DNA of 35,783 bases, taken from positions 1 to 35,783 of the forward strand of contig CATLVU010000015.1 in the NCBI GenBank assembly GCA_950061135.1. Direction: 5' to 3'. Source of the stretch: an uncultured Oligoflexia bacterium. GTDB lineage: Bacteria > Bdellovibrionota > Bacteriovoracia > Bacteriovoracales > Bacteriovoracaceae. Shown one piece after another: positions 3,562 through 16,598 of the stretch. The notes below the pieces were generated by a model. That model was not told the DNA's origin. It did no database searches and worked only from the letters and a program-made list of their open reading frames with translations. Positions within the stretch are counted from its first letter, which is position 1, and each line of letters starts with the position of its first letter. The position numbers were made by a program, and so were the translations under genes.

Positions 3562-5448
3562 ATGAATTACCTAACTTTATTAATACTACTCGCCCTTAGC
3601 TCTTGTTCATTTAAAAGTGATAAAGACAAAAATGGCGCTGTTAAAAACACACAAGCTATATCCCCCCTTACCGATAGTGATGGAGATTTAATTACTGACC
3701 TTGAAGAAAAAGATAAAGGACTTGATCCTTATGTCGCAAATATCCCAAAGTTAAAAATAAATTTTCTTCAAAATTATAATATTACTATTAATTATGAAGA
3801 TGAAACAAACTTTAGACTTGATACAAAAGTTCAAAGAGATAATCCAGACTTTAAGTACCGAGTTGGAAACTTATTTTTAAAAGAACACTCTTTTAATAGC
3901 GCTGCAAAGCTTGGACGATTCTCAGGAGTCTCTTGGGGCAAAATCAATCAACATGACTTTTCTTGGGTTAAATACCCTGAAGTTGATAAAGAGTTCTACT
4001 TTAATAAAACTCGTGAGTTTAAAACTTTTGCAAAGAGCAAAATCTCTAGCTCAACTATCACATTAGAGAATACCTTAAAACTTACTGAATCTCCCCTATT
4101 TGAAAGCATCAAAGATGTAGAGCTTAATTTTTATTATTATAACTTCAAAAAAGAAGCTTATGTTTTACTACATACAGAAAAACTTGATCGGGTGTTTCAA
4201 GGTGGCATAAGAGAAGATTTTGAAATTACAATAAATAACCCTCCCCTCGATTTAATAGAAGATACATATTTTCGACATGGCGAGTTTATTATCTCAGAAG
4301 TAAAAGACTTTTATATCCCAAGCTTAAAGGTTAAATACTCAGAGCTTTTAAGTTCAGTTAAAGCTAAATCTATTGCCATCTATAAAACAACTCCTTTTGA
4401 AAATGACCTAAACTACGTTACTGTAAATCCTAAAGGTGAGAGTTTTATTTCTCTTATGACAAAGCTCTCTGCTAACAAATTTAGTATTACTGAAAATAGA
4501 CTCTCTCAAATTGAGCAGTTCTCAAATAATCTTGGCGATTACACTTACCTTCATGAAGTAGAAAAGGAGGATAAACTTGGTAAATGGTTTATTATGACCA
4601 ATAAGATCAAGAACCACTATCTAAAGCATCTATTTACAAATAATGATGCCATTACCCTATCTTATCTAACAGGAAGTGATCTTGCTAAAAGATCATCTGA
4701 GAAAATCTATTCAAAATATTCCGATATAAAAAGCACTGATACTGGAAAGCTTTATGCCCTTGGCAATATTACAAATAATAGTGAAATTAGTTTGTCTCTT
4801 TATCTTAAAGAACTCGAAGGAGTAAGACTTAGTGTTAAAGAAGGTGTCTTTTCTTTTAGCCCTCCAAGATGTCGTAACTGCACAGGAACCAATTGGTCAG
4901 TACACGCTGAATATCAAGTAAATAGTTTTTCTAAGTTTCAAGAAGATTGGAATCTTAACGAGATAAAAGAGGCAATAAGCTCTTTTGATATTTTAATCAA
5001 TAATACTTTATTAGATTTGAATGAGCTTATTGAGCAAAATCATCTAGATCTTACACTTAAAAATGATGGGGCCAATGACTATATTCATCTTAAATTAAAA
5101 AATCTTCATGAGCTTGAAATCATCAAGGCCGGGCAAGAAAATGTCGCCTTCATTAAGATTAAGCCCTTAAGTGTTGGACATACGGGTGTTGGTGTTCAAA
5201 TCAACAAAATGGGCGGACATAATATAGATAAGGTTTTTCATGCAGGACTTGTTTGCTCACAAGAAGCGGCCCGAAGAAAGATTCCCTTAGCTGTTACCAG
5301 TTGGAAATTCTCTGATTGGCAAAAAAATGTACCTTGGGGAAGGCCCGATCCCAGAACCAAGTATAAACCGACAAAAGGTGAGCTTAAAAAATACTGGACT
5401 GGCACCATTGTCGATTTAATTTCAACCGTAACAAATAATTATAACTAA
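3562..5448 (+). CDS. Large lipoprotein with calcium-binding loop, conjugation-associated
   Basis: This is a 628-residue protein with a lipoprotein signal (LLALSSC, lipid-modified Cys15). After a short polar spacer comes TDSDGDLITDLEE (about residues 37-49), an aspartate-rich loop like the calcium-binding repeats of thrombospondin type 3 and EF-hand folds. The remainder is mostly strand-rich with an isolated CRNCTG pair at about residue 437, and a conserved-looking glycine/histidine segment (HTGVGVQINKMGGHN) near the C-terminus. The gene is directly upstream of the pilin gene, whose ribosome binding site overlaps its stop. It is too large for a VirB7 and matches no Tra or Vir component I know. 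A surface-exposed adhesin, mating-pair stabiliser or exclusion protein is inference from position. Confidence 0.7.
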   Translation: MNYLTLLILLALSSCSFKSDKDKNGAVKNTQAISPLTDSDGDLITDLEEKDKGLDPYVANIPKLKINFLQNYNITINYEDETNFRLDTKVQRDNPDFKYRVGNLFLKEHSFNSAAKLGRFSGVSWGKINQHDFSWVKYPEVDKEFYFNKTREFKTFAKSKISSSTITLENTLKLTESPLFESIKDVELNFYYYNFKKEAYVLLHTEKLDRVFQGGIREDFEITINNPPLDLIEDTYFRHGEFIISEVKDFYIPSLKVKYSELLSSVKAKSIAIYKTTPFENDLNYVTVNPKGESFISLMTKLSANKFSITENRLSQIEQFSNNLGDYTYLHEVEKEDKLGKWFIMTNKIKNHYLKHLFTNNDAITLSYLTGSDLAKRSSEKIYSKYSDIKSTDTGKLYALGNITNNSEISLSLYLKELEGVRLSVKEGVFSFSPPRCRNCTGTNWSVHAEYQVNSFSKFQEDWNLNEIKEAISSFDILINNTLLDLNELIEQNHLDLTLKNDGANDYIHLKLKNLHELEIIKAGQENVAFIKIKPLSVGHTGVGVQINKMGGHNIDKVFHAGLVCSQEAARRKIPLAVTSWKFSDWQKNVPWGRPDPRTKYKPTKGELKKYWTGTIVDLISTVTNNYN

Positions 5449-5458
5449 GGAGCGCCTC

Positions 5459-5716
5459 GTGCCATTAATGATTAGTATATACTTACTTTTTACTCAAAAT
5501 AGCTTTGCAAGGAGCCTTAAAGCAACAGCAGATAAACTTGCTCAAGAAACAAATAGAATAGGACTTGGAGTTGCTCTATTTGGATTATGCCTCGCTGGAA
5601 TCTATTTTATGCTTGGAAAACAAGATGCCTCAGCAAAAATGACTCAAGTATTAATGGGTATTGCCATTGTAATTCTAAGTCCTAGCATCCTTAGCTTTAA
5701 TAAAGGATTAGCGTAA
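5459..5716 (+). CDS. virB2: VirB2/TrbC-like conjugative pilin
   Basis: The 85-residue product has a signal peptide (cleavage likely after NSFA, about residue 17). Two hydrophobic helices follow (about 35-53 and 62-80) separated by a short basic turn with GKQDASAK. This is the layout of VirB2/TrbC pilins, which assemble with phospholipid into the conjugative pilus. The start is GTG at 5459, six bases after AAGGAG (5447-5452), which overlaps the preceding stop. The next gene's ATG overlaps this stop by one base. Position just before VirB3- and VirB4-like genes supports the call; similarity is in layout more than in exact sequence. Confidence 0.75.
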   Translation: MPLMISIYLLFTQNSFARSLKATADKLAQETNRIGLGVALFGLCLAGIYFMLGKQDASAKMTQVLMGIAIVILSPSILSFNKGLA

Positions 5717-5967
5717 TGAAAAAGTTTCCAAAATTTTTACAAACAATGCCTACTATTTACGGATTAGGCCCTTATGAATTATTTTCACTTGTTATTTCTC
5801 TATACATAGCGATGCTACTTAATCTTTCATCTTTAAAATCAATAGTTGCGTGTCTAAGTCTCATCGGTATCACAAAGATAATTCGTAAAAGAGTTGATTT
5901 TATTGGATTAAGCGCACCCTCTATTAAATTTCTTGATTTAACAAAATTAAAAGGAGCAAAAAAATGA
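5716..5967 (+). CDS. virB3: VirB3-like inner-membrane protein
   Basis: The 83-residue protein has a short N-terminal amphipathic stretch, then a hydrophobic region (about 23-55) that can form one or two membrane helices, and a basic C-terminal end. VirB3/TrbD/TraL proteins are of this size and always sit between the pilin and the VirB4 ATPase, as here. The gene overlaps the pilin stop by one base and the VirB4 start by four (ATGA). VirB3 helps place VirB4 at the membrane and is needed for pilus assembly. The call rests mainly on size, topology and context. Confidence 0.65.
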   Translation: MKKFPKFLQTMPTIYGLGPYELFSLVISLYIAMLLNLSSLKSIVACLSLIGITKIIRKRVDFIGLSAPSIKFLDLTKLKGAKK

Positions 5968-7838
5968 TTCCTTTATTTGAAGTTAGCGGAAATAAGCTTG
6001 TATCTCTAAACGGAAAGAAAAGTAGTTTTTATCAGATCATTCCCCCTGACACAGAGGGAATGACTGAGTTTTCAAAAAATCAATTGTTTTCAAACATCGA
6101 AAGTGAACTTATTCAAAATGATAATGAATTAAAAATTTATTGGCTAGATCAAAAGCTTTATATCAATTCATTTTCAGATAAAAATATCAATTTGGGCACA
6201 GCCCTACCGTGCATGGAACCACTAACAACATTTTTTGGAAACTACCCGACTCAAGTTAACTTTTATGATAACTATTTAACCTGCGGTAATGAGTATTTAC
6301 GGCTTTTTTCTTTAAAAGAGTTCCCTTCCAAAATTGAAATGCTAGATACCCTTTATTGGCCCAACTTTGTCCTCAATATTAAAAAGATTGAACAAAACAA
6401 AGCAAAAAAGACAGTTAATCTTAAAAGAAAACTTCATTTTTCAGGCTTATTTGAGGGTATTAAAAATATTGACTCAGAAAATGCCTATCATGAAGCGCAA
6501 AATGTACTGGAGGATTTAACCACTGGTGAAACCTCTTTATTTCAGATTGAATGCTTTATTATAGCGAGAGGCGATACAAAAAAAGAGCTAGATAAAAACT
6601 CAGAAAAGATCGTATCCAATTTTAATGCAATTGATGCCTTGGTATTTCAAGAAGAGCGAGGATTATCCTATTTTTTTCAAACATTAATTCCAGGAGTAGA
6701 ACCTAGTTTTAAAAGATCACGCCCTTGTTTTTCTGAATATGTAGGCCTTATGATTCCTTTTCACCAAGATTTTATTCATGATGAAGGAATAGAGCTTTTA
6801 TCAAAAGATGAGCACTCCATTTACTGGAATCTTTTTGATCCAAATGCCATCAATTACAATATTTTGATCACAGGCCAATCAGGACAAGGAAAATCCATGA
6901 TGGCCCATAAAATATTAAAACATGAATTATCAGTTGGAACAAAAGCGTTAATTCTTGATCTTGGAAACAGCTTCTATAAAACAGCAAGATTTTATAATGG
7001 AAGTATCTTTTCTCAAAAGTTTAACCCCTTGCAATTTAAGAATCCAAGGTATTTAAAAGAATTTGTACTATCTGTAGTAGATGATAATTTTTCAAAAAAA
7101 GATAAAGGACACCTTTTTCAAGTCATACAAGACATCATAGAAGATGATATTCAAAGTTTTAATGAGTTTTTAGAAAGACTTGAATCCGAGTTTAATGGCA
7201 TAAGTTTTTATTTTTCTGAAATCAAAGATTATTTTACAAATGATTCAGTTGAGATCAATGATCTTACCTATTGCGACTTTTCAAATTACCCAGAAGCGAT
7301 AAAGGCGCCTCTTATCATTTATTTAATTGAGTATTTTAAAAATATGAGTGGAGAAAAGATATTTATCTTTGATGAATGTTGGCATTTATTAAATAATAAC
7401 GCTGAATATATCGCCGAATGTTTTAGAACTTTTAGAAAACATAAGGCCTCTGCAATTGCTATATCTCAAAACCTTGATGATTTTTCAATGACACCACTTG
7501 GTAGAGTTATTATTCAAAATACTTATTGGAAACTTCTATTTCGTCAAAATCTTGCTCCCTCTGAGTTTATTGATACTCACAGCATAGATTTAATGGAAGA
7601 TATATATTCCAAAAAAGATGAGTACAGTGAGTTTTTACTTTTATCTGAGAATATTAAAAAGCCTGTTCGCTTTTATCCTTCAATTTTTGAGTATGAGCTT
7701 TTTAATACCAGTAGAGATCAGCTTATAAGATTTGATAACTACTTTCAAAATAATCAAGATTATATGAGCTTTCAAGAATGTATGCGAAGTTTTGTTCAAA
7801 TAAAACATCCAAACGAAGAGGTTTATTATGAGGAATAA
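5964..7838 (+). CDS. virB4: VirB4/TraC-family conjugation ATPase
   Basis: This 624-residue ATPase energises pilus biogenesis and transfer. The N-terminal half (to about residue 280) is the CagE/TrbE/VirB4 N-domain. The C-terminal RecA-like domain has Walker A GQSGQGKS (about 304-311), Walker B IFIFDECWHLL (about 466-476), and the downstream AIAISQNLDDF segment typical of VirB4. No transmembrane helix is evident, so membrane attachment probably depends on the VirB3-like partner. It is shorter than most VirB4 proteins (about 800 residues). The ATG overlaps the upstream stop, and the next gene begins within its last codons. This is one of the surest assignments in the operon. Confidence 0.93.
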   Translation: MIPLFEVSGNKLVSLNGKKSSFYQIIPPDTEGMTEFSKNQLFSNIESELIQNDNELKIYWLDQKLYINSFSDKNINLGTALPCMEPLTTFFGNYPTQVNFYDNYLTCGNEYLRLFSLKEFPSKIEMLDTLYWPNFVLNIKKIEQNKAKKTVNLKRKLHFSGLFEGIKNIDSENAYHEAQNVLEDLTTGETSLFQIECFIIARGDTKKELDKNSEKIVSNFNAIDALVFQEERGLSYFFQTLIPGVEPSFKRSRPCFSEYVGLMIPFHQDFIHDEGIELLSKDEHSIYWNLFDPNAINYNILITGQSGQGKSMMAHKILKHELSVGTKALILDLGNSFYKTARFYNGSIFSQKFNPLQFKNPRYLKEFVLSVVDDNFSKKDKGHLFQVIQDIIEDDIQSFNEFLERLESEFNGISFYFSEIKDYFTNDSVEINDLTYCDFSNYPEAIKAPLIIYLIEYFKNMSGEKIFIFDECWHLLNNNAEYIAECFRTFRKHKASAIAISQNLDDFSMTPLGRVIIQNTYWKLLFRQNLAPSEFIDTHSIDLMEDIYSKKDEYSEFLLLSENIKKPVRFYPSIFEYELFNTSRDQLIRFDNYFQNNQDYMSFQECMRSFVQIKHPNEEVYYEE

Positions 7839-8490
7839 GCTAGCTCTTTCTTTAATTTTCTTAGGACTATCAGGACAAACGTACTCTTCCATTTTCGGAG
7901 AAGAAACAGCAGTTCTTATTGAAATTGCCTCAACCACAGCAAGCCAATTAAATGAATTAGAACAATTAGTTACCAATGCGGAAAAATACACCAAAAAGAT
8001 GCAAGAGTATAACGAGCTTATGATGGATCATTATTGGCGAGCAGAGAGGATTTTATTTGTAGCAGAATCTCTTGCGGCCAAAAAGGATGCCAAAAATCTA
8101 GGAGAGCTTAATTGGGCGATTAGAGAGTTAAAATATTCAATGTTAGAGCTTAAAACTCTTATGAATGAATATAAAGAGATTAAAAATGACGAGGATCGCA
8201 CCAAGTTTTTAGTTAAAAGACAAAAAAAGATCAATGAGAAAAAGGCAAGGCTCTCTGAACATCAAATAAAATCAGCTAAAACTGCCAAAACCACAGGTAG
8301 AGCGGCGCAGGTTACGGCTCAAAACACAGCTCTTCTTTATGAGCAAAATGTAGAGATGCACAACACCCAACTTGAAATCCTAGAAAAAATTTCAACAACT
8401 AATCGCCTTAAAGCTGAGGAACTAGAAGATAAAAGGTTTTTGCAAATTGAAAAAGAAAAGTTCTACGGACTTAAAGAAGGTAAAAGATGA
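7828..8490 (+). CDS. VirB5/TrbJ-like periplasmic coiled-coil protein
   Basis: The 220-residue product has a signal peptide (hydrophobic to about residue 20, cleavage near TYSS). A mature chain follows that is almost entirely helical and highly charged, with coiled-coil heptads over about 35-130 and 165-215. This matches VirB5/TrbJ minor pilus components, which sit at the pilus tip and affect recipient contact. It lies between VirB4- and VirB6-like genes, exactly the VirB5 position in Agrobacterium. Sequence identity to the family cannot be judged by eye, so the call combines fold type, export signal and order. Start overlaps the VirB4 gene by 11 bases. Confidence 0.6.
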   Translation: MRNKLALSLIFLGLSGQTYSSIFGEETAVLIEIASTTASQLNELEQLVTNAEKYTKKMQEYNELMMDHYWRAERILFVAESLAAKKDAKNLGELNWAIRELKYSMLELKTLMNEYKEIKNDEDRTKFLVKRQKKINEKKARLSEHQIKSAKTAKTTGRAAQVTAQNTALLYEQNVEMHNTQLEILEKISTTNRLKAEELEDKRFLQIEKEKFYGLKEGKR

Positions 8491-9752
8491 GCAATATACT
8501 TCAAGAGATGCTTTTAATAGATGATCCAAGTATTTTTAGGCTTTATAAAGAGCTTATCAAGATTGCCAATTACTTTATTGCACCTGTTTTTACAATTTCT
8601 TTAATCTTAGAGTTTTTTGGACAAATGAATTTTAGTACAAGCGTTAAAAAATTATTTTTAGTTATTATCTTTATGGGTTCATTTTATCAGTTTCACACCG
8701 GCGCTACTCAGATCGCTCTTGAAAGTGCAGGACAAACTCTAAAAAAAGTTAGTCCCGCCAATTTATTTGTCAAAAAATGGAATCAAGCAAAAATTAAAAC
8801 GAAAAAACAAAAAGGATGGGATTCACTTAAAAATATCATCATTCCGAACTTAAATGATCTTATAGGGACTGCATTTTTTGTTCTTGCTAAAATTTTTATC
8901 TGGCTTTTAAAGCTTATTTATTCAAGTGTTTATCACCTTACTTACGTTTTTGCTGGCTTTAGCGCTATTTTATATTTTCTTGGATGGACTCAAGATGCTC
9001 TAAAAGGAACTGTGCAAGCAAGTATTTGGTGTATGATAATGCCATTTGTAATTGTAGCTATATTATCCCTAGTCGGAAACAGCATTGAAGCAACAGCTCT
9101 TGGAGGCAATCTTGTTATCGCTAAAATTGATACTGTCATTTGGCTTTTTGGTGTCACTCTTCTTTTACTTATAAGTCCTCTTATTAGTTATGGCATGATT
9201 CGAGGTGATGGAATTCACTCATTTGGATCAAAAATGGGAACAATGGTTGTAAGCTCTGGACTAAAAGCAATGGCCTTATATCCCATGATGGGGAAAATGA
9301 TGAGTTCAGTAAAAAATCGTACCGTTTCCCCGTTAAGTAATAAAGCTGAGAATGTTTTTAAAAGCCTTAGACAAACAAGCTCCCCTCAAGGGCCCAATAA
9401 TCACAAAGTGGATCAAAATATCAAAAAAGAAGGAAGTAGCTTTAAACAAAACAAGCAAGTCAATACAAAGGCGCAAAGCTCCCTGAAATTAAATGTGAGT
9501 AAAAATCACAACGCACAAAGAAAAGAAACTTCTCTTAATAATAGTCCGCAAACTAATTTAGTCTCTGACAAAGGGCAACGAGTTCAAAAAATAGATAATG
9601 GAGGCAAAAGGAACGGGAAGACTAAAGTATCTGCTCAAATGCCACAAACTCATTTTAGACAAGAAAAGAAGTCACAAACGAAACGAGTGATTCGCTCTAA
9701 ACATGAGATCAAAAACAAGACCCACTTAAAAAGTAAAAGGAATAGAGAATGA
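8487..9752 (+). CDS. VirB6/TrbL-like polytopic channel protein with long basic tail
   Basis: The 421-residue protein has about five to seven membrane segments (near 20-40, 48-68, 130-150, 153-172, 182-205 and 222-245). It ends with a hydrophilic tail from about residue 285 that is rich in K, N, Q and S and low in complexity. VirB6/TrbL forms part of the inner-membrane channel of type IV systems. Position after VirB5 and before VirB8 supports the call. The 135-residue basic tail is unusual; tails on VirB6 proteins are known mainly from Rickettsiales, where they are often extracytoplasmic. The ATG overlaps the previous stop (ATGA). Confidence 0.72.
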   Translation: MSNILQEMLLIDDPSIFRLYKELIKIANYFIAPVFTISLILEFFGQMNFSTSVKKLFLVIIFMGSFYQFHTGATQIALESAGQTLKKVSPANLFVKKWNQAKIKTKKQKGWDSLKNIIIPNLNDLIGTAFFVLAKIFIWLLKLIYSSVYHLTYVFAGFSAILYFLGWTQDALKGTVQASIWCMIMPFVIVAILSLVGNSIEATALGGNLVIAKIDTVIWLFGVTLLLLISPLISYGMIRGDGIHSFGSKMGTMVVSSGLKAMALYPMMGKMMSSVKNRTVSPLSNKAENVFKSLRQTSSPQGPNNHKVDQNIKKEGSSFKQNKQVNTKAQSSLKLNVSKNHNAQRKETSLNNSPQTNLVSDKGQRVQKIDNGGKRNGKTKVSAQMPQTHFRQEKKSQTKRVIRSKHEIKNKTHLKSKRNRE

Positions 9753-10204
9753 ATTTTGATGAATTTAAAACAACATATGTTAACGAGAATAAAAGACTAA
9801 AAACTGTACTAGCACTTACTCTTATTCTAACATCACTTACAACTTTGAGTGTTGCGTTTCAGCATAGATATTTTATCTATAATGGAAAAAGTATATTTGA
9901 AGAGCGCCCTACTGCTGTCGAAGTCTGTAAACGTGCTTTTGAAAGCCTCGCTAGTGGTGAACCTAATTCTTATCTTGTAACTGATGAAATCATTGAGCTT
10001 GTAGAAAAAGAGCCTTTTAATCTTAGAGTTGATAAAATCCTAAAGCTAGAATCTCTTGAGAAAAACTTTTGTAAGATTATTCTAAAATCAGATGGCGATC
10101 TTCTCTCGTTTAAGATCGGCTTAAAAGAGAGTTCATTTTTTCCATTTCATTACAAATTAATTCAATTAGATCAACTGGCCATTGTAAAAGGAGAAAGAAA
10201 GTGA
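9749..10204 (+). CDS. VirB8/TraE-like inner-membrane assembly protein
   Basis: The 151-residue protein has a short cytoplasmic N-terminus, one membrane helix (about 20-40) and a periplasmic domain of about 110 residues. That is the VirB8/TraE bitopic layout. The domain is roughly two thirds the usual VirB8 length, closer to TraE. VirB8 nucleates assembly of the inner part of the channel. The call rests on topology and on its place between VirB6- and VirB9-like genes. Start overlaps the previous stop by four bases, and the next gene starts at the GTGA overlap. Confidence 0.6.
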   Translation: MNFDEFKTTYVNENKRLKTVLALTLILTSLTTLSVAFQHRYFIYNGKSIFEERPTAVEVCKRAFESLASGEPNSYLVTDEIIELVEKEPFNLRVDKILKLESLEKNFCKIILKSDGDLLSFKIGLKESSFFPFHYKLIQLDQLAIVKGERK

Positions 10205-10671
10205 GCTTTTATATATTAGCAAACCATATAACTACCCTATTTTTAAGCTTAAACCTTTTAACAACTCTTAGCTTTGATTCAGAGATTATTAGTTATTTAT
10301 ATGGGGGCAGTAAAGAAGATGTGTTTTTTAAGGTAACAAATAATAATCGCACCCTAGCGATTAAACCTTTAACGGATGGGAGTTTTTCAAATCTTTTGGT
10401 TATTACTAAAGAGAGAAAATACTATTTTGACCTGAATCTTGCAAAAAATAATCCTCATCAATTTATTGAAATTAAAGATGGTATTCCAAGTCATGCACTA
10501 ATTAAGAAAATGATAACTAAATCCTATGACGTACTTGAGGGACAATCATCGATTCTTTTTATTAATAAATTGGATCGTGATGTTTGGGTAAACTCTAAAA
10601 AGGTAAAACGAAAAGAGTATTTATCTAAAGGGGTCCCCATCATCTTAGAGGGCAAACGTATTTTAAACTAA
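10201..10671 (+). CDS. VirB9/TraK-like outer-membrane core component (short)
   Basis: The 156-residue product starts at GTG 10201, six bases after AAGGAGAA-type purines (10190-10197) and overlapping the upstream stop. A hydrophobic N-terminus (about 5-27) looks like a signal. The segment SNLLVITKERKYYFDL (about 61-76) matches the conserved VirB9 strand pair written as TNLVIVTdkRtYnFeL in the family. VirB9 is normally about 270-290 residues; here the C-terminal domain that contacts VirB7 seems reduced or absent. It probably forms the outer-membrane ring with the VirB10-like protein encoded next. Confidence 0.65.
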   Translation: MSFYILANHITTLFLSLNLLTTLSFDSEIISYLYGGSKEDVFFKVTNNNRTLAIKPLTDGSFSNLLVITKERKYYFDLNLAKNNPHQFIEIKDGIPSHALIKKMITKSYDVLEGQSSILFINKLDRDVWVNSKKVKRKEYLSKGVPIILEGKRILN

Positions 10672-10689
10672 AAGATTAAGGACACTTAA

Positions 10690-11448
10690 ATGAAGAGATT
10701 AACAATTATTTTAATTGTCATGGGGTTTTGCATTCAAAATAGCAATTTATGGGCGCTTGAAGCAAGAATCACCATGCTTAAAAATAAAAAAAGTAAAAAA
10801 ATAAGCTCCCCCAAAAAGCGAGGTTCAGATGAATTATTTAAAAGGCTTATGCAAAATAATCAAAAAATTAACGATCTTCTTAAAGCAAGGACTCAGATAC
10901 CTGTTATATGGGAAGGAAACGAAAGGATTCTCACAGGAAAGACATACCGTGGTACTCTTTTAAACTCTATTAATTCAACAAATATTGCATCTCCTGTACT
11001 GGTTCAAGCTGATCTAAATCAAGGACTTCCTTTTAATAGTAAGTTTTCATGTCAGGCAATCACTCAGCAAAAACGAGTATATTGTATTTGCAATAAACTG
11101 ATTACTACCACAAAAGAAATCCCCATTAGCGCCCAGCTTTTAAATATTGATGGATCATCAGGACTTACAGGTATCTATGAGGATGGAAAAGAAGATTTAA
11201 TCGCAGGAATGATTTTATCAGAGTTCTCGCAAGGAGTACTTGCATCTGCTCAAGATAAAATCACCACACCATTTGGCAATATCCAAGAGCAAAGTTTTAA
11301 AAATCATCTTTTGCAAGGAGGTGTTAATTCCGCTAACGGGGCATCTAAAATTCTTTTAGAAGAAATGAAACAAACCGTGCCTATTATCACAATTAAAGCA
11401 GGATCAAGGGTTTTAATCTATTTTATGGAGAAGATTCATGAGCTTTAG
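10690..11448 (+). CDS. VirB10/TrbI-like core protein (short)
   Basis: The 252-residue protein has a hydrophobic N-terminal segment (about 5-23), a basic linker (KNKKSKKISSPKKRG), then a C-terminal domain. That domain has VirB10/TrbI features: ILTGKTYRGTLLNSIN near 75, QLLNIDGSSGLTGIYEDGKE near 155, and IKAGSRVLIYFME near the end. VirB10 spans both membranes and gates the channel. The usual length is 370-450 residues; this one has almost no proline-rich middle region. Ribosome binding site AAGGA (10678-10682) precedes the ATG. The lipoprotein gene overlaps its 3' end by 11 bases. Confidence 0.7.
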   Translation: MKRLTIILIVMGFCIQNSNLWALEARITMLKNKKSKKISSPKKRGSDELFKRLMQNNQKINDLLKARTQIPVIWEGNERILTGKTYRGTLLNSINSTNIASPVLVQADLNQGLPFNSKFSCQAITQQKRVYCICNKLITTTKEIPISAQLLNIDGSSGLTGIYEDGKEDLIAGMILSEFSQGVLASAQDKITTPFGNIQEQSFKNHLLQGGVNSANGASKILLEEMKQTVPIITIKAGSRVLIYFMEKIHEL

Positions 11449-11944
11449 ACTACTCATTTTTTTAACCTTATTTACATCATGCTCCACACTTAAAAGATCA
11501 GTTATTAGTGGATCATTAATTGGAGCAGTGACAGGAGGAACCGGCGGTGCTGTATTTTCGCCTAATGAAGAATCCACCAACAAAAATGCTTATCTTGGAA
11601 GCTTACTTGGCGCTGTTGCAGGAGCAGGACTTGCTTATTTAATGCACGAGAAACCTAAAAAGAAAGAGGGTAAGTCAATGCTACTAGATGAACCAACACT
11701 AAATCATAAGGAGGTACCATTATTTGATTTTTCCCCAGAATTAAAAAACATCAAACCAGAAGTTAATTTTAAACCAATTAAGAAGTACGAAGTACCGACA
11801 GAAAAATTACCAAAAGAGCTGGAAGGAAAGGTAAAAAAACAGTTCATTATCGAATACCAATCTGATTCTCAAACTCTTGAGATAGGAAATAGAACAATTC
11901 AAATTAGTCCTTTTAAGGCATGGGAGCATGTATATGAACAATAA
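11438..11944 (+). CDS. Glycine-zipper lipoprotein, candidate VirB7/TraV counterpart
   Basis: The 168-residue protein has a lipoprotein signal (LTLFTSC, Cys15). A glycine-zipper hydrophobic pair follows (SLIGAVTGGTGGAVF and SLLGAVAGAGLAYLM, about 25-68), then a proline- and lysine-rich tail. Glycine-zipper lipoproteins insert in or line the outer membrane. In type IV systems the lipoprotein VirB7/TraV stabilises VirB9 and the outer-membrane ring. Here the gene lies after VirB10 rather than between VirB6 and VirB8, and the protein is larger than a classic VirB7. The role is inferred from context. The coupling-protein gene starts inside its last codons. Confidence 0.6.
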   Translation: MSFRLLIFLTLFTSCSTLKRSVISGSLIGAVTGGTGGAVFSPNEESTNKNAYLGSLLGAVAGAGLAYLMHEKPKKKEGKSMLLDEPTLNHKEVPLFDFSPELKNIKPEVNFKPIKKYEVPTEKLPKELEGKVKKQFIIEYQSDSQTLEIGNRTIQISPFKAWEHVYEQ

Positions 11945-13325
11945 AAAACAATCACCACAATTTGATTTTTTTACACCAATCTATGAAATCTTTCATGAGC
12001 TTTGCATGCTTATTGCAGAGCTTGGAAAAGAGCTTTTATTTTGGGGATATAAAAAAGCTTTTAATAAGGCCCCACCTCTTCAAAAAATTGATCGAAAAGC
12101 ATTAGCGGTTATAAACACAACTGACCTTCAAGATACTTTAGGCATTGATACAAAAACGAGAAAGGACTTTCTATTAGATGATATTGATTTTAGAAAACAT
12201 AGTTTTATTGTTGGGGCATCAGGCTTTGGAAAAACAAACTTAATTAGTATTCTTCAAGAAAATTCATTAGTGCAAAACAAGCCTATTATTTTCTTTGACC
12301 CAAAAGGCGATTTAGAGGCCCTTACTACCTTTAAATCCATTTGCGAGAAATACAACAAACCTTGCTATATCTTTTCTGAACACTACCAAGATTCAATCTC
12401 GTTAAATCCTGTGATAGAGGGAACTGTTAACCAAGTCACAGATAGAATCATGAGGGCCTTTGAATGGTCAGAGCCTTATTACAAAGATGCGTCAAGAAGA
12501 AGCTTAACTAGAGCTTTAAAGAACTTAGAGTTTGAAGATCAGGCCTTCACATTAAGAGCAATCTTTGAAGAGCTTGAAAAAATGGAGTCCAAAGAAAATA
12601 TTGGATTAATCGCCAAGATTGAAGCGATATTGGATTCAGATTTTGGAAAAATCTTAAACGCTAATAATGAAGGGCTTACCCTATCAAAAATCAGAGAAGA
12701 AAGAGCTTGTTTATATATAGGGCTTTCAACTCAAGGTTATGGTGAAACAGCAATGGCGGTAGGAAAGCTTTTTCTAGGAGAGCTTCTTTATAACTCTTAT
12801 AAGACCCTAAAGGATAATTCTAAGCTCAAGCATGGATTATCCAACCCAATCAGTGTTTATTTTGATGAGTTTGGCTCACTTGTAACACCGGACTTTATTG
12901 AGCTTCAAAATAAATGTAGAGGTGCTGGAATTGAGCTTACTATTGCAGTACAAACAGCTTCTGATATTGACCGAGTAAATCCTGAGCTTACAAAACAAGT
13001 TGTAGAAAACGCAGGGAATCTATTTGTCCTAAAACAGCGTTTAGATGCTTCAGCTTCGTTTTTTGCAGATGCTATCGGAACAATTTTATCTAAGAAAGAG
13101 ACAATTATTATCGAAGAAGGAAGATTGCAAAACCGAGGAAGTATTCGAGAAGTTAACGAGCTTTTAGTTCATCCTGACATCATCAAAAATTTAAGAATAG
13201 GCCAATGTATTTTACTACGGCAAGGCCCTACCCAAATTAACTTAATCAATATCCGAAACCGCGAGGTGGATAAGATGAAAAAACTAGCAAGTATCTGGGA
13301 TAAATTTCCAGAGCTATTTAACTAA
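11934..13325 (+). CDS. virD4: VirD4/TraG-family coupling ATPase without clear membrane anchor
   Basis: This 463-residue type IV coupling protein would bring the relaxase-DNA complex to the channel and pump DNA. Walker A is VGASGFGKTN (about 92-101), followed by IIFFDPKGDLEAL (about 117-129), typical of VirD4/TraD. Walker B is ISVYFDEFGSL (about 305-315), and AVQTASDIDRV follows. The start at 11934 is preferred because GGGAG (11922-11926) is seven bases upstream; the ATG at 11928 would be only one base away. Classic VirD4 proteins have two N-terminal membrane helices; here residues 1-50 contain only an amphipathic helix. It may be soluble and tethered by a partner, as for some short coupling proteins of other ICEs. 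Confidence 0.88.
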   Translation: MNNKKQSPQFDFFTPIYEIFHELCMLIAELGKELLFWGYKKAFNKAPPLQKIDRKALAVINTTDLQDTLGIDTKTRKDFLLDDIDFRKHSFIVGASGFGKTNLISILQENSLVQNKPIIFFDPKGDLEALTTFKSICEKYNKPCYIFSEHYQDSISLNPVIEGTVNQVTDRIMRAFEWSEPYYKDASRRSLTRALKNLEFEDQAFTLRAIFEELEKMESKENIGLIAKIEAILDSDFGKILNANNEGLTLSKIREERACLYIGLSTQGYGETAMAVGKLFLGELLYNSYKTLKDNSKLKHGLSNPISVYFDEFGSLVTPDFIELQNKCRGAGIELTIAVQTASDIDRVNPELTKQVVENAGNLFVLKQRLDASASFFADAIGTILSKKETIIIEEGRLQNRGSIREVNELLVHPDIIKNLRIGQCILLRQGPTQINLINIRNREVDKMKKLASIWDKFPELFN

Positions 13326-13337
13326 AAGGAATTGCTT

Positions 13338-14069
13338 ATGAGTTCTATATCGCATCTTAATAGCGTTTATATTAATTACCTCACACCATTAATTAAGTGG
13401 AGGATTATGGATTTAGAAAGTTTAAGGAGACAATGTGGTTCACGGCCTAACTATTTTCACTTTGCAAGAGTTATTAGAAAAATGGAAAAAGAAAAAATAC
13501 TCAGTAGCTATAAGCACCGATTTAACGGCAAAAAATATCTCTTTTTTAACTCGTTCGGAGAACGGCAAATCACGGGCATCCAAAATCCGACAGGAGTATC
13601 AAAGGATTCCATAATTCATGATTTAAAAGTATCTGAGCTTACAATGACACTATTAGAATCAGGGCTGATTGATGACGTTTCTTTAGAGCATGAACTGCAA
13701 AACAAAAGAAATTTTAGACAAACCTACAGGGTTATTCCTGATGCTCTCTTAGAAATTAATCAAGGAGATAAAAAGCAAAAATTAGCATTAGAGCTTGAAT
13801 TAACTCAGAAACAAAAACAAAGGATAAGGGAAAAAGCAAAGCAATATATGATTAGTTCTAAGTATGATTTTGTAATCTATGTATTCCCGAACAAAAGAAT
13901 GCTGCAGATGTATATGCAAGAAATTATGAGTAGCGTTGGAAGTAAATATTTTAATCGTTTTGTATTTATAACTGATGAAAGTATCACGATAAAAAAGACT
14001 AATCTCTTAGAGTTTGATTGCTATAGAGCAAATAAGGTCTATCCATTTTGTGAGTTTTTGAAGGTGTAA
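13338..14069 (+). CDS. Replication-relaxation family protein, candidate MOBC-type relaxase
   Basis: The 243-residue protein has an N-terminal winged-helix-like region (about 15-75, with LRRQCGSRPNYFHFARVIRKM) and a C-terminal domain. That domain carries a helix beginning at H95 (IIHDLKVSELTM), then IPDALLEI (D135), LALELELTQ (E152, E154) and a following K-rich helix ending in Y. This H/PD/ExE layout is that of the replication-relaxation family (PF13814), which includes MOBC relaxases and resembles PD-(D/E)XK nucleases. Known MOBC proteins nick oriT without a catalytic tyrosine. No other relaxase is visible, and the structured non-coding stretch follows directly. Start: ATG 13338, seven bases after AAAGGA; the TTG at 13332 is too close to it. 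Confidence 0.65.
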   Translation: MSSISHLNSVYINYLTPLIKWRIMDLESLRRQCGSRPNYFHFARVIRKMEKEKILSSYKHRFNGKKYLFFNSFGERQITGIQNPTGVSKDSIIHDLKVSELTMTLLESGLIDDVSLEHELQNKRNFRQTYRVIPDALLEINQGDKKQKLALELELTQKQKQRIREKAKQYMISSKYDFVIYVFPNKRMLQMYMQEIMSSVGSKYFNRFVFITDESITIKKTNLLEFDCYRANKVYPFCEFLKV

Positions 14070-14083
14070 ATGGGGTGTAAATG
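14064..14083. repeat. Tandem 9-mer GTGTAAATG with 11-bp period
   Basis: GTGTAAATG occurs at 14064-14072 (overlapping the relaxase stop codon) and 14075-14083. A weaker TTGTAAACA follows at 14120-14128. One-helical-turn spacing suggests a protein binding site at the left edge of the candidate oriT. Confidence 0.4.
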
Positions 14084-14103
14084 CACAACAAATGATTTTT
14101 TTA

Positions 14104-14232
14104 ACGGCTCGCCAAGTCGTTGTAAACATTAAGAAAATATCCGCTCCGAAATTGACTCCCTCTCTCTCACGTAATTCGATAGATGGAGTCAGTTTCTACG
14201 CGGGATAAGTTTCTATGATCAACAGGCGAGCC
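14104..14232. other. Candidate origin of transfer (nested inverted repeats)
   Basis: An outer perfect inverted repeat pairs GGCTCGCC (14106-14113) with GGCGAGCC (14225-14232). Inside it GAAATTGACTCC (14148-14159) pairs with GGAGTCAGTTTC (14185-14196) with one G-T pair, and CCGC (14141-14144) pairs with GCGG (14200-14203), extended by TAT/ATA beyond a one-base bulge. The 25-base loop holds CTCTCTCTCACG. The stretch has no coding frame and lies just after the relaxase candidate and before an accessory gene, where an oriT would be expected. A structured RNA is the alternative. Confidence 0.5.
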
Positions 14233-14252
14233 TAATTTTAGGAGTAGGAGAT

Positions 14253-14621
14253 ATGGAAAATATAATAAAGGAAGAGAGTAAAAAAAGAGGAAGGAAAACA
14301 AAAAATCAAAGTAAAGAAGTGGTTATAAATAAAGAGCAAACAAAGTTTTTTGTGGATTTAAGTAATGAAAAAAAGATTTTAGATTTGATTTTTAGTTTTT
14401 TAGTAAAGTGCAACCAAAAGAGTTATGGAAGGATTATTACTTTCAAAGACCTCTGTCTTTATTCTTTGTCTAGGCTGACAGAAAAAGACATTAGCAAGGT
14501 TCAAGAAATGAGTCTAACTCAAATGGAAAAAGTCCAAAGGGCCTTAGATGATTTTAACAAGAAGACAGATCAAAAGCTTGAGCTTGGTGAATTTTTAGTC
14601 AAGAAGCTTGGAATTAATTAA
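14253..14621 (+). CDS. Hypothetical accessory protein, possibly DNA-binding
   Basis: The 122-residue protein has a basic N-terminus (KKRGRKTKNQSK) and then a helical body without signal, cysteines or enzymatic motif. AGGAG at 14240-14244 lies eight bases before the ATG. It is the first gene after the candidate oriT and is followed by SSB, so it may be an auxiliary mobilisation or replication protein that binds the repeats. This is inference from place and charge. I do not recognise the family. Confidence 0.55.
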   Translation: MENIIKEESKKRGRKTKNQSKEVVINKEQTKFFVDLSNEKKILDLIFSFLVKCNQKSYGRIITFKDLCLYSLSRLTEKDISKVQEMSLTQMEKVQRALDDFNKKTDQKLELGEFLVKKLGIN

Positions 14622-14638
14622 AACAAGGAATGCGAAAA

Positions 14639-14944
14639 ATGAATGAACAACAATATATTTTATTATTTGGAAGACTTGGAAAAAATCCAGAGCTTAAATA
14701 CACAAAAGAGCAAAAAGCCGTATGTGCTTTTTCACTAGCACAGAATCTAGAAGGACAAGACAAACCAATATGGCACAATATCATTATCTGGGGAAAACAA
14801 GCAGAGCAATGCAATTTATACCTTAAAAAAGGTTCTCCCGTTTTTGTGCGCGGCCAAATACAATCACGTAGCTATACATCAAGTCAAGGTGAAACTAAGC
14901 AATTTACAGAAGTTAAAGCCGATTTAGTTGGTTTCACTTATTAA
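14639..14944 (+). CDS. ssb: Short single-stranded DNA-binding protein (SSB family)
   Basis: The 101-residue OB-fold protein reads FGRLGKNPELKYTKEQKAVCAFSLAQ near the start in shorter pieces: GRLGKNPELKYT, then AVCAFSLAQN, IWHNIIIWGKQAEQC and KGSPVFVRGQIQSRSY, the standard SSB strand order. It coats single-stranded DNA, here probably the transferred or incoming strand. It stops right after the OB fold with GFTY, lacking the glycine-rich linker and acidic DDDIPF-type tail that recruit host repair proteins. Start: the ATG at 14639 is preferred, with AAGGA at 14625-14629; the ATG at 14630 overlaps that site. It belongs to the module of accessory protein, SSB, excisionase and integrase. Confidence 0.88.
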   Translation: MNEQQYILLFGRLGKNPELKYTKEQKAVCAFSLAQNLEGQDKPIWHNIIIWGKQAEQCNLYLKKGSPVFVRGQIQSRSYTSSQGETKQFTEVKADLVGFTY

Positions 14945-14963
14945 AAATTTGAAGGAAATATCA

Positions 14964-15251
14964 ATGAATAAAAAAGAAAAATCTACTCAATACAATTCAC
15001 AAGACTTATGCTATACTACCATTGCTGGAGAATCTCCAGCAATGCTCTTTGACAATTTGCCAGAAATATTAAGGCCGAACACTGCTGCTGAATTACTAGG
15101 TATTTCAGTTAAAACAATCTATGATTGGCGGTATCGGCAAGAGACGAGAAATATCCCAAAGAACCTATTTATAAAAATTAATAGGTTTTTATATATCCGA
15201 ACATCTGCGTTAAGAGATTGGATTGGCCAACAAAACAACACTTTGTTGTAA
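14964..15251 (+). CDS. Excisionase-like helix-turn-helix protein
   Basis: The 95-residue reading starts at ATG 14964, seven bases after AAGGA (14952-14956). Residues about 35-90 form a MerR/excisionase-type winged helix: RPNTAAELLGISVKTIYDW, then a basic wing and FLYIRTSALRDWIG. Such proteins bend DNA at attachment sites and set the direction of integrase action; many also repress their own promoter. It lies 12 bases upstream of the integrase gene. A second in-frame ATG at 15042 would give a 69-residue protein of classic excisionase size and lies at the edge of a perfect palindrome, so the true start is open. Confidence 0.75.
   Translation: MNKKEKSTQYNSQDLCYTTIAGESPAMLFDNLPEILRPNTAAELLGISVKTIYDWRYRQETRNIPKNLFIKINRFLYIRTSALRDWIGQQNNTLL
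15009..15044 (+). promoter_or_regulatory. Extended -10 motif followed by a 25-bp perfect palindrome
   Basis: TGCTATACT (15009-15017) fits an extended -10 element (TGn-TATAAT type). Two bases later the arms CATTGCTGGAGA (15020-15031) and TCTCCAGCAATG (15033-15044) form a perfect inverted repeat around a single A. The second arm contains the alternative ATG 15042. This is the layout of an operator over a transcription start, or of an RNA hairpin covering a start codon, in front of the integrase gene. Confidence 0.5.
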
Positions 15252-15263
15252 GGAGGTTTAACC

Positions 15264-16421
15264 ATGACAATTCGCAAAGTTCAAACAGCTAAAGGTACAA
15301 ATTATCTAGTTGATATTTATGCTAATGGCCGTAACGGTAAACGCATTAGACGTAAATTCAAAAAGAAAATTGATGCTCAAAACTTTTTAGATAACTATCT
15401 CGCTGAAAAAGTAAATTATATAAAATCGGGTAAGTCTTTAGGACTTCTCGAAGAAGTTATCTATAAGGATGAGGCCATATTTTGGCTAGAGTCAATGAGA
15501 CATCACTTTTCTGTATCTCATTTAAAAAGAGTTCAAGGAATTCTAAGAGATCAATTAGAACGATTTGGAAATCATACTCTAGACAGGCTTGATGCTGCTT
15601 TTTTAACCAATTATCAAAGGGAGCTAAAAGCACATCGCCAAAAAAATGCAACGATCAATCGAAAGACAGAGGTTTTTACCTCTGTCTTTAATCACTCAGT
15701 CAGGCATAGACGTATCCCCTATTCACCAGCGATAGGGTTTAAAAAACTTCCTCTTCACAGAGAAGAAGTTTCCTTTTGGGAAAAATCAGAAGTTAGCGAC
15801 TTTTTGAGATATATGAATATACGTTATCCAAAAGCTTCTTCCAAGAGATGGGTTTACGTTGCCTACCTAACAGCTTTAAATACAGGTGTTAGAGCAGGAG
15901 AATTGTGGGGACTAAAAAAAGAAGACCTTTCCCACCAAAATGAAACTATTTTTGTAAGACGACAACTTAATCGCATTACCAAAGAATTTGATTTACTAAA
16001 GGGAAAAAGAAATTCAAAGTCAGGAAAGCTTTCAAGACGCGTCCCTTGTAACCCTGAAATAAGAAAAGAGTTAAATGAGTTGATTAAAGAAAAAAAGATC
16101 AAAGACGGTGAAACCATCTTTCAAAATCTTGAAGGGAAGCCTATAGACCATGATAACTTTCAGAGAGTTTTCAAGGCCGATTTAAAGGCTTGGGGTGGAA
16201 GGGCCATTCGTTTTCATGATCTTCGCCATACGGCAATCACACAAATGATTGCAGCAGGCATTGATATTAAAACGGTGCAAAGTATTGCAGGCCATGAAGA
16301 TGTCAAAACGACGATGAACTATGTCCATCTTGTCGGCGACTCAATTAAGGAAGTTGCAAGATCGTTTAGCTTATCTTTTAGCAACGAAAATGACAGTAAA
16401 CTAAGGTTGATTTCGGGCTAA
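15264..16421 (+). CDS. int: Phage-type tyrosine integrase of the ICE
   Basis: The 385-residue integrase has an N-terminal arm-binding domain (about 1-50, with YLVDIYANGRNGKRIRRKF), a core-binding SAM-like domain (about 65-160) and a catalytic domain. Catalytic residues: R210 in LNTGVRAGE, K255, H318 and R321 in FHDLRHTA, H344 in AGHED and Y353. It would integrate and excise the element. An excellent ribosome binding site (AGGAGG, 15251-15256) is seven bases before the ATG at 15264. The gene ends about 100 bp from the 3' end of tRNA-fMet, the usual position next to the attachment site. No frameshift or lost residue is seen, so it is probably active. Confidence 0.93.
   Translation: MTIRKVQTAKGTNYLVDIYANGRNGKRIRRKFKKKIDAQNFLDNYLAEKVNYIKSGKSLGLLEEVIYKDEAIFWLESMRHHFSVSHLKRVQGILRDQLERFGNHTLDRLDAAFLTNYQRELKAHRQKNATINRKTEVFTSVFNHSVRHRRIPYSPAIGFKKLPLHREEVSFWEKSEVSDFLRYMNIRYPKASSKRWVYVAYLTALNTGVRAGELWGLKKEDLSHQNETIFVRRQLNRITKEFDLLKGKRNSKSGKLSRRVPCNPEIRKELNELIKEKKIKDGETIFQNLEGKPIDHDNFQRVFKADLKAWGGRAIRFHDLRHTAITQMIAAGIDIKTVQSIAGHEDVKTTMNYVHLVGDSIKEVARSFSLSFSNENDSKLRLISG

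Positions 16422-16521: not shown

Positions 16522-16598
<77 letters not shown>

Follow-up and report, generated by a model that had tools for sequence, protein, structure and literature searches.

Relaxases of the MOB_C type are PD-(D/E)XK enzymes, and the pAD1 relaxase TraX, which carries an N-terminal winged-HTH (wHTH) domain, binds five direct repeats located 70-120 bp downstream of nic (PMC5714925, PMC12857230). For this relaxase family, the review consulted covers one experimentally studied prototype in detail (PMC12857230). Among integrative mobilizable elements, those without a relaxase are termed iOriT and those with a relaxase iMOB (PMC11389934). Few descriptions exist of conjugation in Bacteriovorax-type predators; a 2025 paper on the resistance genes of a single strain reported tra/mob genes to be absent there (PMC12642874), and no described oriT for this bacterial group was found in the literature searched. 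Here, a specific and widespread transfer origin is proposed for these predators, together with its relaxase and T4SS. Judging from its structure, its conservation, its linkage to a relaxase gene and its retention in elements that lack a relaxase, the segment at 14063-14232 is very probably the oriT of an integrative conjugative element (ICE) in a Bacteriovoracales genome.

The element, its putative relaxase and the site

The window, i.e. the whole stretch of DNA that was analysed (35,783 nucleotides), makes up an entire contig in a draft genome of 88.6% completeness, and the relatives retrieved by protein search belong to Bacteriovoracales. The element in the window is an ICE with the following genes:

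3562-13325, + strand: T4SS operon, assigned with Pfam/NCBIfam; the same gene order is found beside the hairpin in most sufficiently flanked loci
3562-5448, + strand: 628-aa protein, first gene of the T4SS operon
5459-5716, + strand: TrbC/VirB2 pilin, T4SS operon
5716-5967, + strand: ORF in the VirB3 position, T4SS operon
5964-7838, + strand: VirB4 ATPase, T4SS operon
7828-8490, 8487-9752 and 9749-10204, + strand: ORFs without assignment, T4SS operon
10201-10671, + strand: VirB9/CagX, T4SS operon
10690-11448, + strand: VirB10/TrbI, T4SS operon
11438-11944, + strand: glycine-zipper protein, T4SS operon
11928-13325, + strand: VirD4-type coupling protein, T4SS operon
13332-14069, + strand: putative MOB_C-like relaxase gene, 245 aa, wHTH domain and, C-terminal to it, a PD-(D/E)XK-type domain
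14253-14621, + strand: orf122, 122-aa protein, located 3' of the hairpin in most full elements
14630-14944, + strand: SSB (PF00436, E 1.8e-26)
14928-15251, + strand: small HTH_17 protein, probable excisionase (PF12728, E 1.4e-8)
15264-16421, + strand: tyrosine integrase (PF00589, E 1.5e-29)
16522-16598, - strand: tRNA-Met with its 3' end towards the integrase, probable attachment site

The 628-aa protein has no Pfam/NCBIfam match, and its position is conserved in related elements. The product of orf122 is a possible accessory relaxosome protein. No left att of the element is present in the contig, because the contig begins within the element. A second tyrosine recombinase gene is located at the contig start (208-1062, 284 aa, PF00589, E 1.6e-34).

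The first-pass annotation had named a relaxase candidate next to the site. This assignment is retained and corrected to the MOB_C-like type (wHTH plus PD-(D/E)XK): based on motif, profile comparison and structural model, the 245-aa protein is treated as a distant MOB_C-like relaxase. It matches PF13814 with an E-value of 1.2e-3 (19.4 bits against a curated cut-off of 25.3) and the MobC model NF041423 with an E-value of 1.2e-6 (28 against a curated cut-off of 200), in both cases below the cut-off; at an E-value of 0.01, PF13814 is matched by seven of 25 relatives. Profile comparison using hhalign relates the protein to the MobC encoded by a ColRNAI-type MOB_C plasmid (E 3e-8, probability 95) and, with remote similarity, to the pAM373 relaxase (E 5e-5). 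The residues P134, D135, E152, E154 and K158 (alignment numbering) are invariant across 25 homologues and form the PD-(D/E)XK nuclease pattern (P, D, E-x-E, K). The AlphaFold (AF2) model is a confident one, with a pLDDT of 88. Its N-terminal winged HTH is further indicated by Foldseek matches to MarR-type wHTH proteins with weak E-values, and Foldseek matches to the PD-(D/E)XK enzymes FokI and PaqCI are likewise weak (best E 2.6e-3). A second MOB_C-like relaxase gene of the same genome is located at 6432-7112 of G000:C7 (L129), with a divergent site of its own, TGACCTCCCTCTC...GAGAAGGAGGTCA, at 7207-7243.

The dyad at 14104-14232 and the neighbouring GTGTAAATG repeats constitute one site with three parts. 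Direct repeats of 11 bp come first, and the outer inverted repeat that follows encloses an inner hairpin built around TGACNNC/GNNGTCA:

14063-14095, + strand: 11-bp direct repeats, two copies of GGTGTAAATG and a weaker third unit; proposed relaxase binding site
14106-14113, + strand: left arm of the outer inverted repeat, GGCTCGCC, 8 bp, perfect
14141-14203, + strand: inner hairpin with the invariant TGACNNC (14153-14159) and GNNGTCA (14185-14191)
14153-14159, - strand: predicted nick at 14157/14156, with GGA|GTCA as the sequence of this strand; based on the pAD1 geometry (PMC12857230) and on the CloDF13 nic sequence
14185-14191, + strand: symmetric alternative nick, GGA|GTCA, between 14187 and 14188; suggested by the dyad symmetry
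14225-14232, + strand: right arm of the outer inverted repeat, GGCGAGCC, 8 bp, perfect

The outer repeat occupies exactly the positions given in the first-pass annotation, and a terminal 8-bp inverted repeat arose by chance in 27 of 20,000 dinucleotide-resampled copies of the stretch. The imperfect inner hairpin and its CT-rich loop, also described there, were recovered with arms at 14141-14166 and 14178-14203 (77% match) and a pyrimidine-rich loop side. The core of this hairpin comprises 12 pairs, one of them T-G, between GAAATTGACTCC (14148-14159) and GGAGTCAGTTTC (14185-14196). Folded as a single strand, the site reaches -24.8 kcal/mol (z = -4.7), which none of 200 shuffles equalled. The tandem repeats reported beside the dyad correspond to the GGTGTAAATG copies at 14063-14072 and 14074-14083, spaced by 11 bp, the first of which overlaps the relaxase stop codon (gene end 14069). 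In agreement with the earlier reading of the stretch as non-coding, no ORF of at least 60 aa covers 14070-14252.

Conservation and small elements carrying the site

A covariance model of the site, built from seven copies, matches 56 of 129 Bacteriovoracales genomes, representing 24 of 48 genera, as well as four genomes that belong to a different family in the phylum. Of 47 loci, 36 have the relaxase gene upstream of the site and on the same strand, with the gene end 10-111 bp away. The reverse approach, a protein search, placed the hairpin just downstream of the gene in 25 of 30 relaxase loci, some of which overlap with the loci behind the covariance model. Relaxase homologues that the covariance model had missed carry the inner TGAC/GTCA hairpin in all 20 cases examined and an outer inverted repeat of at least 11 bp in 18 of them. 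Across the 47 loci, the inner stem is always present and an outer inverted repeat of at least 8 bp is found in 41, as compared to 9.7% of shuffles. Just upstream of the outer repeat, 38 non-redundant loci display an 11-bp periodicity (z 15, 9 and 4 at lags 11, 22 and 33), which is absent from the other three zones tested. The direct-repeat sequences vary between elements, which suits a specificity determinant, a role that the repeats may have. Conservation is incomplete in the loop and at the inner C-T mismatch; the mismatch was considered as a conserved functional mark and dropped, as C-T is present in 29 and a C-G pair in 17 of the 47 loci. Searches for similar DNA among plasmids and for the exact core pattern in viral contigs returned no match.

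The site is also found in much smaller elements, and a search model for it reveals such hitchhikers without a relaxase. Contig C75 of the same genome holds a second copy, whose neighbours are an HTH gene and an integrase located at tRNA-Glu. The 35.8-kb window and this 12.8-kb contig have only 14065-14313 in common at the DNA level (77%, E 7e-42), and the two integrases have no blastp match to each other. An initial delimitation of C75 as a 2-kb element was dropped, since the far att end was not found and the element may extend beyond the contig end. The element L094 (4.4 kb) is bounded by 54-bp att repeats at tRNA-Gly (7308-7361 and 11690-11743) and contains, besides the site itself, an XRE-type HTH gene adjoining a small ORF that resembles a toxin gene, two ORFs without assignment, another HTH gene and an integrase. 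Relaxase or T4SS homologues were not found inside L094, which thereby corresponds to the iOriT definition of a bounded integrated element that has an oriT-like site without a relaxase or T4SS gene. A 107-aa ORF and the XRE-type HTH gene (7579-8212) probably form a toxin-antitoxin-like pair as cargo of this element. L012 (6.2 kb, 26-bp repeats) has no relaxase near the site; a 250-aa ORF upstream of its hairpin was removed as a relaxase candidate (15% identity, not homologous). L011 (9.3 kb) and L013 encode only the relaxase, and L104, L107 and L108 encode the coupling protein and the relaxase. Each of C75, L012, L094, L011 and L013 occupies a tRNA 3' end and has a tyrosine integrase, and complete bounds are established for L012, L094 and L011. 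In the terms of PMC11389934, C75, L012 and L094 are iOriT-like, while L011 and L013 are iMOB-like; unlike the elements of that study, those described here have a MOB_C-type site, and their mobility is putative. The short elements, which contain little beyond the site and an integrase, are apparently carried along by the same machinery, and their mobility would presumably be helper-dependent.

Evidence for a DNA site and alternative readings

The first-pass annotation had proposed to look in related elements for covarying stems and for a conserved short nick-like motif, and both are present. In the 47-row alignment, 12 of 17 stem pairs have changed on both sides, with 150 two-sided changes in total, and TGACNNC/GNNGTCA is invariant. 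Paired cells amount to 93%, compared to 76% in shuffles, and pairing is lost if the partner is shifted by one to three columns. G-U pairs are well tolerated in RNA stems and are not expected in a dyad that is maintained at the DNA level. They account for five of 710 pairs (0.7%) in the stem and for 20 of 253 (7.9%) in a small control of 12 tRNAs from the same loci (Fisher p 2e-8), and this near-absence argues for DNA and not RNA. A structured RNA between the relaxase gene and orf122, either a small RNA or the 5' leader of an orf122-SSB operon, would account for the good single-strand fold, and the region, placed between two operon genes, may be transcribed. However, the direct repeats lie outside the stem and the site is kept in elements without orf122 and SSB. 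No Rfam family reaches its gathering score on the stretch, and no promoter-like or terminator-like sites were found on it. The RNA reading was rejected on this missing support and on the G-U depletion, and we consider it highly improbable.

Taken alone, covariation of a DNA dyad does not distinguish an oriT from another dyad-binding role of the same protein. A wHTH protein that autoregulates its operon through a double-stranded operator without nicking is compatible with the wHTH domain, the dyad symmetry and the direct repeats placed where the relaxase gene ends, and relaxases often autoregulate. Yet the site is retained in L094, L012 and C75, where the protein and the T4SS are missing nearby, its stem positions change freely while staying paired, unlike those of a sequence-specific operator, and the catalytic P, D, E-x-E and K are invariant; an operator is therefore very unlikely. 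Integrase and site do share one module, as would be expected of a recombination or attachment site, but this reading is contradicted by the att repeats of L094, L012 and L011. Such repeats lie at tRNA 3' ends, outside the hairpin and 1.7-2.5 kb away from it, and the same hairpin occurs alongside integrases that are unrelated to each other and use different target tRNAs, leaving this reading with next to no probability. More weight, although still a low probability, is given to a replication origin of the excised circle (a rolling-circle dso or a single-strand initiation site) served by the same relaxase. Relaxases, including the MOB_C protein TraX, can be multifunctional (PMC5714925), and an SSB is encoded alongside; against this, the site always adjoins coupling protein/relaxase or integrase genes and its layout is that of known MOB_C oriTs. 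A replication role would also be compatible with an oriT role. The oriT reading, already favoured in the first-pass annotation, gains strong support from the linkage to the relaxase gene, from the architecture shared with pAM373 and CloDF13 and from the retention of the site where an element has neither relaxase nor T4SS genes.

For an oriT at 14063-14232, we infer relaxase binding, nicking, strand choice and transfer as follows. The MOB_C-like relaxase would bind the 11-bp direct repeats via its wHTH domain and extrude or recognise the nested dyad, and its PD-(D/E)XK domain would cut one strand at GNN|GTCA in the inner stem. The VirD4-type coupling protein would then hand the nicked strand to the T4SS, whose genes lie upstream. 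Integrated elements of smaller size that have the same site, with or without a relaxase gene, would be moved in trans.

Comparison with known MOB_C origins

By analogy, the site appears to be of the MOB_C type, with a layout matching the pAM373 oriT region and the CloDF13 nic region. Such analogy also bears on the nick, which the first-pass annotation had sought just after the hairpin, around 14204-14220. This placement is not upheld: comparison with known MOB_C oriTs points to the inner stem instead, where the nick is expected, with moderate confidence, at GNN|GTC. The inner stem is a dyad, so both strands present the same nick sequence. The direct repeats lie 61-94 bp downstream of the predicted - strand nick, and the geometry of pAD1 (PMC12857230), in which the repeats follow nic at 70-120 bp, speaks for the - strand over the + strand. 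A testable rule for the nick position of MOB_C relaxases is thereby offered.

In pAM373 of Enterococcus faecalis (also pAD1 oriT2; MOB_C relaxase TraX), the arrangement is that of the window: direct repeats, each roughly one helical turn long, precede an outer inverted repeat that encloses an inner TGAC/GTCA hairpin, and the site adjoins a gene for a wHTH and PD-(D/E)XK relaxase, as it does here (PMC12857230). Between its TraG-like and relaxase genes, five direct repeats with a period of 12 were located, along with an outer inverted repeat of 20 bp and an inner TGACCAT stem containing CCTGACCAT. The pAM373 site differs in its span (about 145 bp versus 127 bp in the window), its repeat period (12 versus 11) and its outer stem (20 bp versus 8 bp). 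It lies 5' of the relaxase gene, whereas the site in the window lies 3', and its T4SS is of the Gram-positive kind, unlike that of the window. Sites of Enterococcus hirae and E. mundtii also have 11-bp repeats. The oriT/nic region of CloDF13 (MobC, MOB_C) has the same layout as the window, with a 14-bp outer inverted repeat around an inner GACCACCC/GGGTGGTC stem, and its MobC-type relaxase is homologous to that of the window (hhalign E 3e-8 via the MobC of the ColRNAI-type plasmid). Its inner loop is longer, no direct repeats were detected in the region, and CloDF13 is a plasmid, whereas the window element is an ICE.

A strict nested-dyad scan yields a single match in CloDF13, which includes GGGTGGTCGGG, the sequence that we take to be the published CloDF13 nic (GGGTG/GTCGGG), and no match in shuffled copies of pAM373 and CloDF13. 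In 763 kb of Bacteriovoracales DNA, it recovers 35 of the 47 known sites and one more, which adjoins a second relaxase gene. Since the scan parameters had been loosened after CloDF13 was seen, only eight later MOB_C plasmids serve as a fair test, and in these five matches fall at the mobilisation operon, among them that of the CloDF13 relative L144. The dyads of L139 and L143 are recognised only with longer loops, L138 gave one spurious match, and L141 stands outside the assessment because the record start cuts the region. In L139 (Aeromonas, 4766-4924) and L143 (E. coli, 4691-4799), a nested GACCACC...GGTGGTC dyad is located upstream of the coupling protein and mobC.

These comparisons lead to a generalisation that may equally well hold or fail: MOB_C oriTs from Bdellovibrionota, Bacillota and Gammaproteobacteria would share one architecture and, in the inner stem, one core (GAC...GTC, in many cases accompanied by [CA]ACG in the loop) that contains the nick, and lineage-specific direct repeats of 11-12 bp, where present, would set the specificity of the relaxase. 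If true, this would make it possible to detect MOB_C oriTs from DNA alone, together with the dependent elements that lack a relaxase. This apparent cross-phylum core, which links the site in the window to those of pAM373 and CloDF13, is the most interesting part of the analysis and the one most worth testing.
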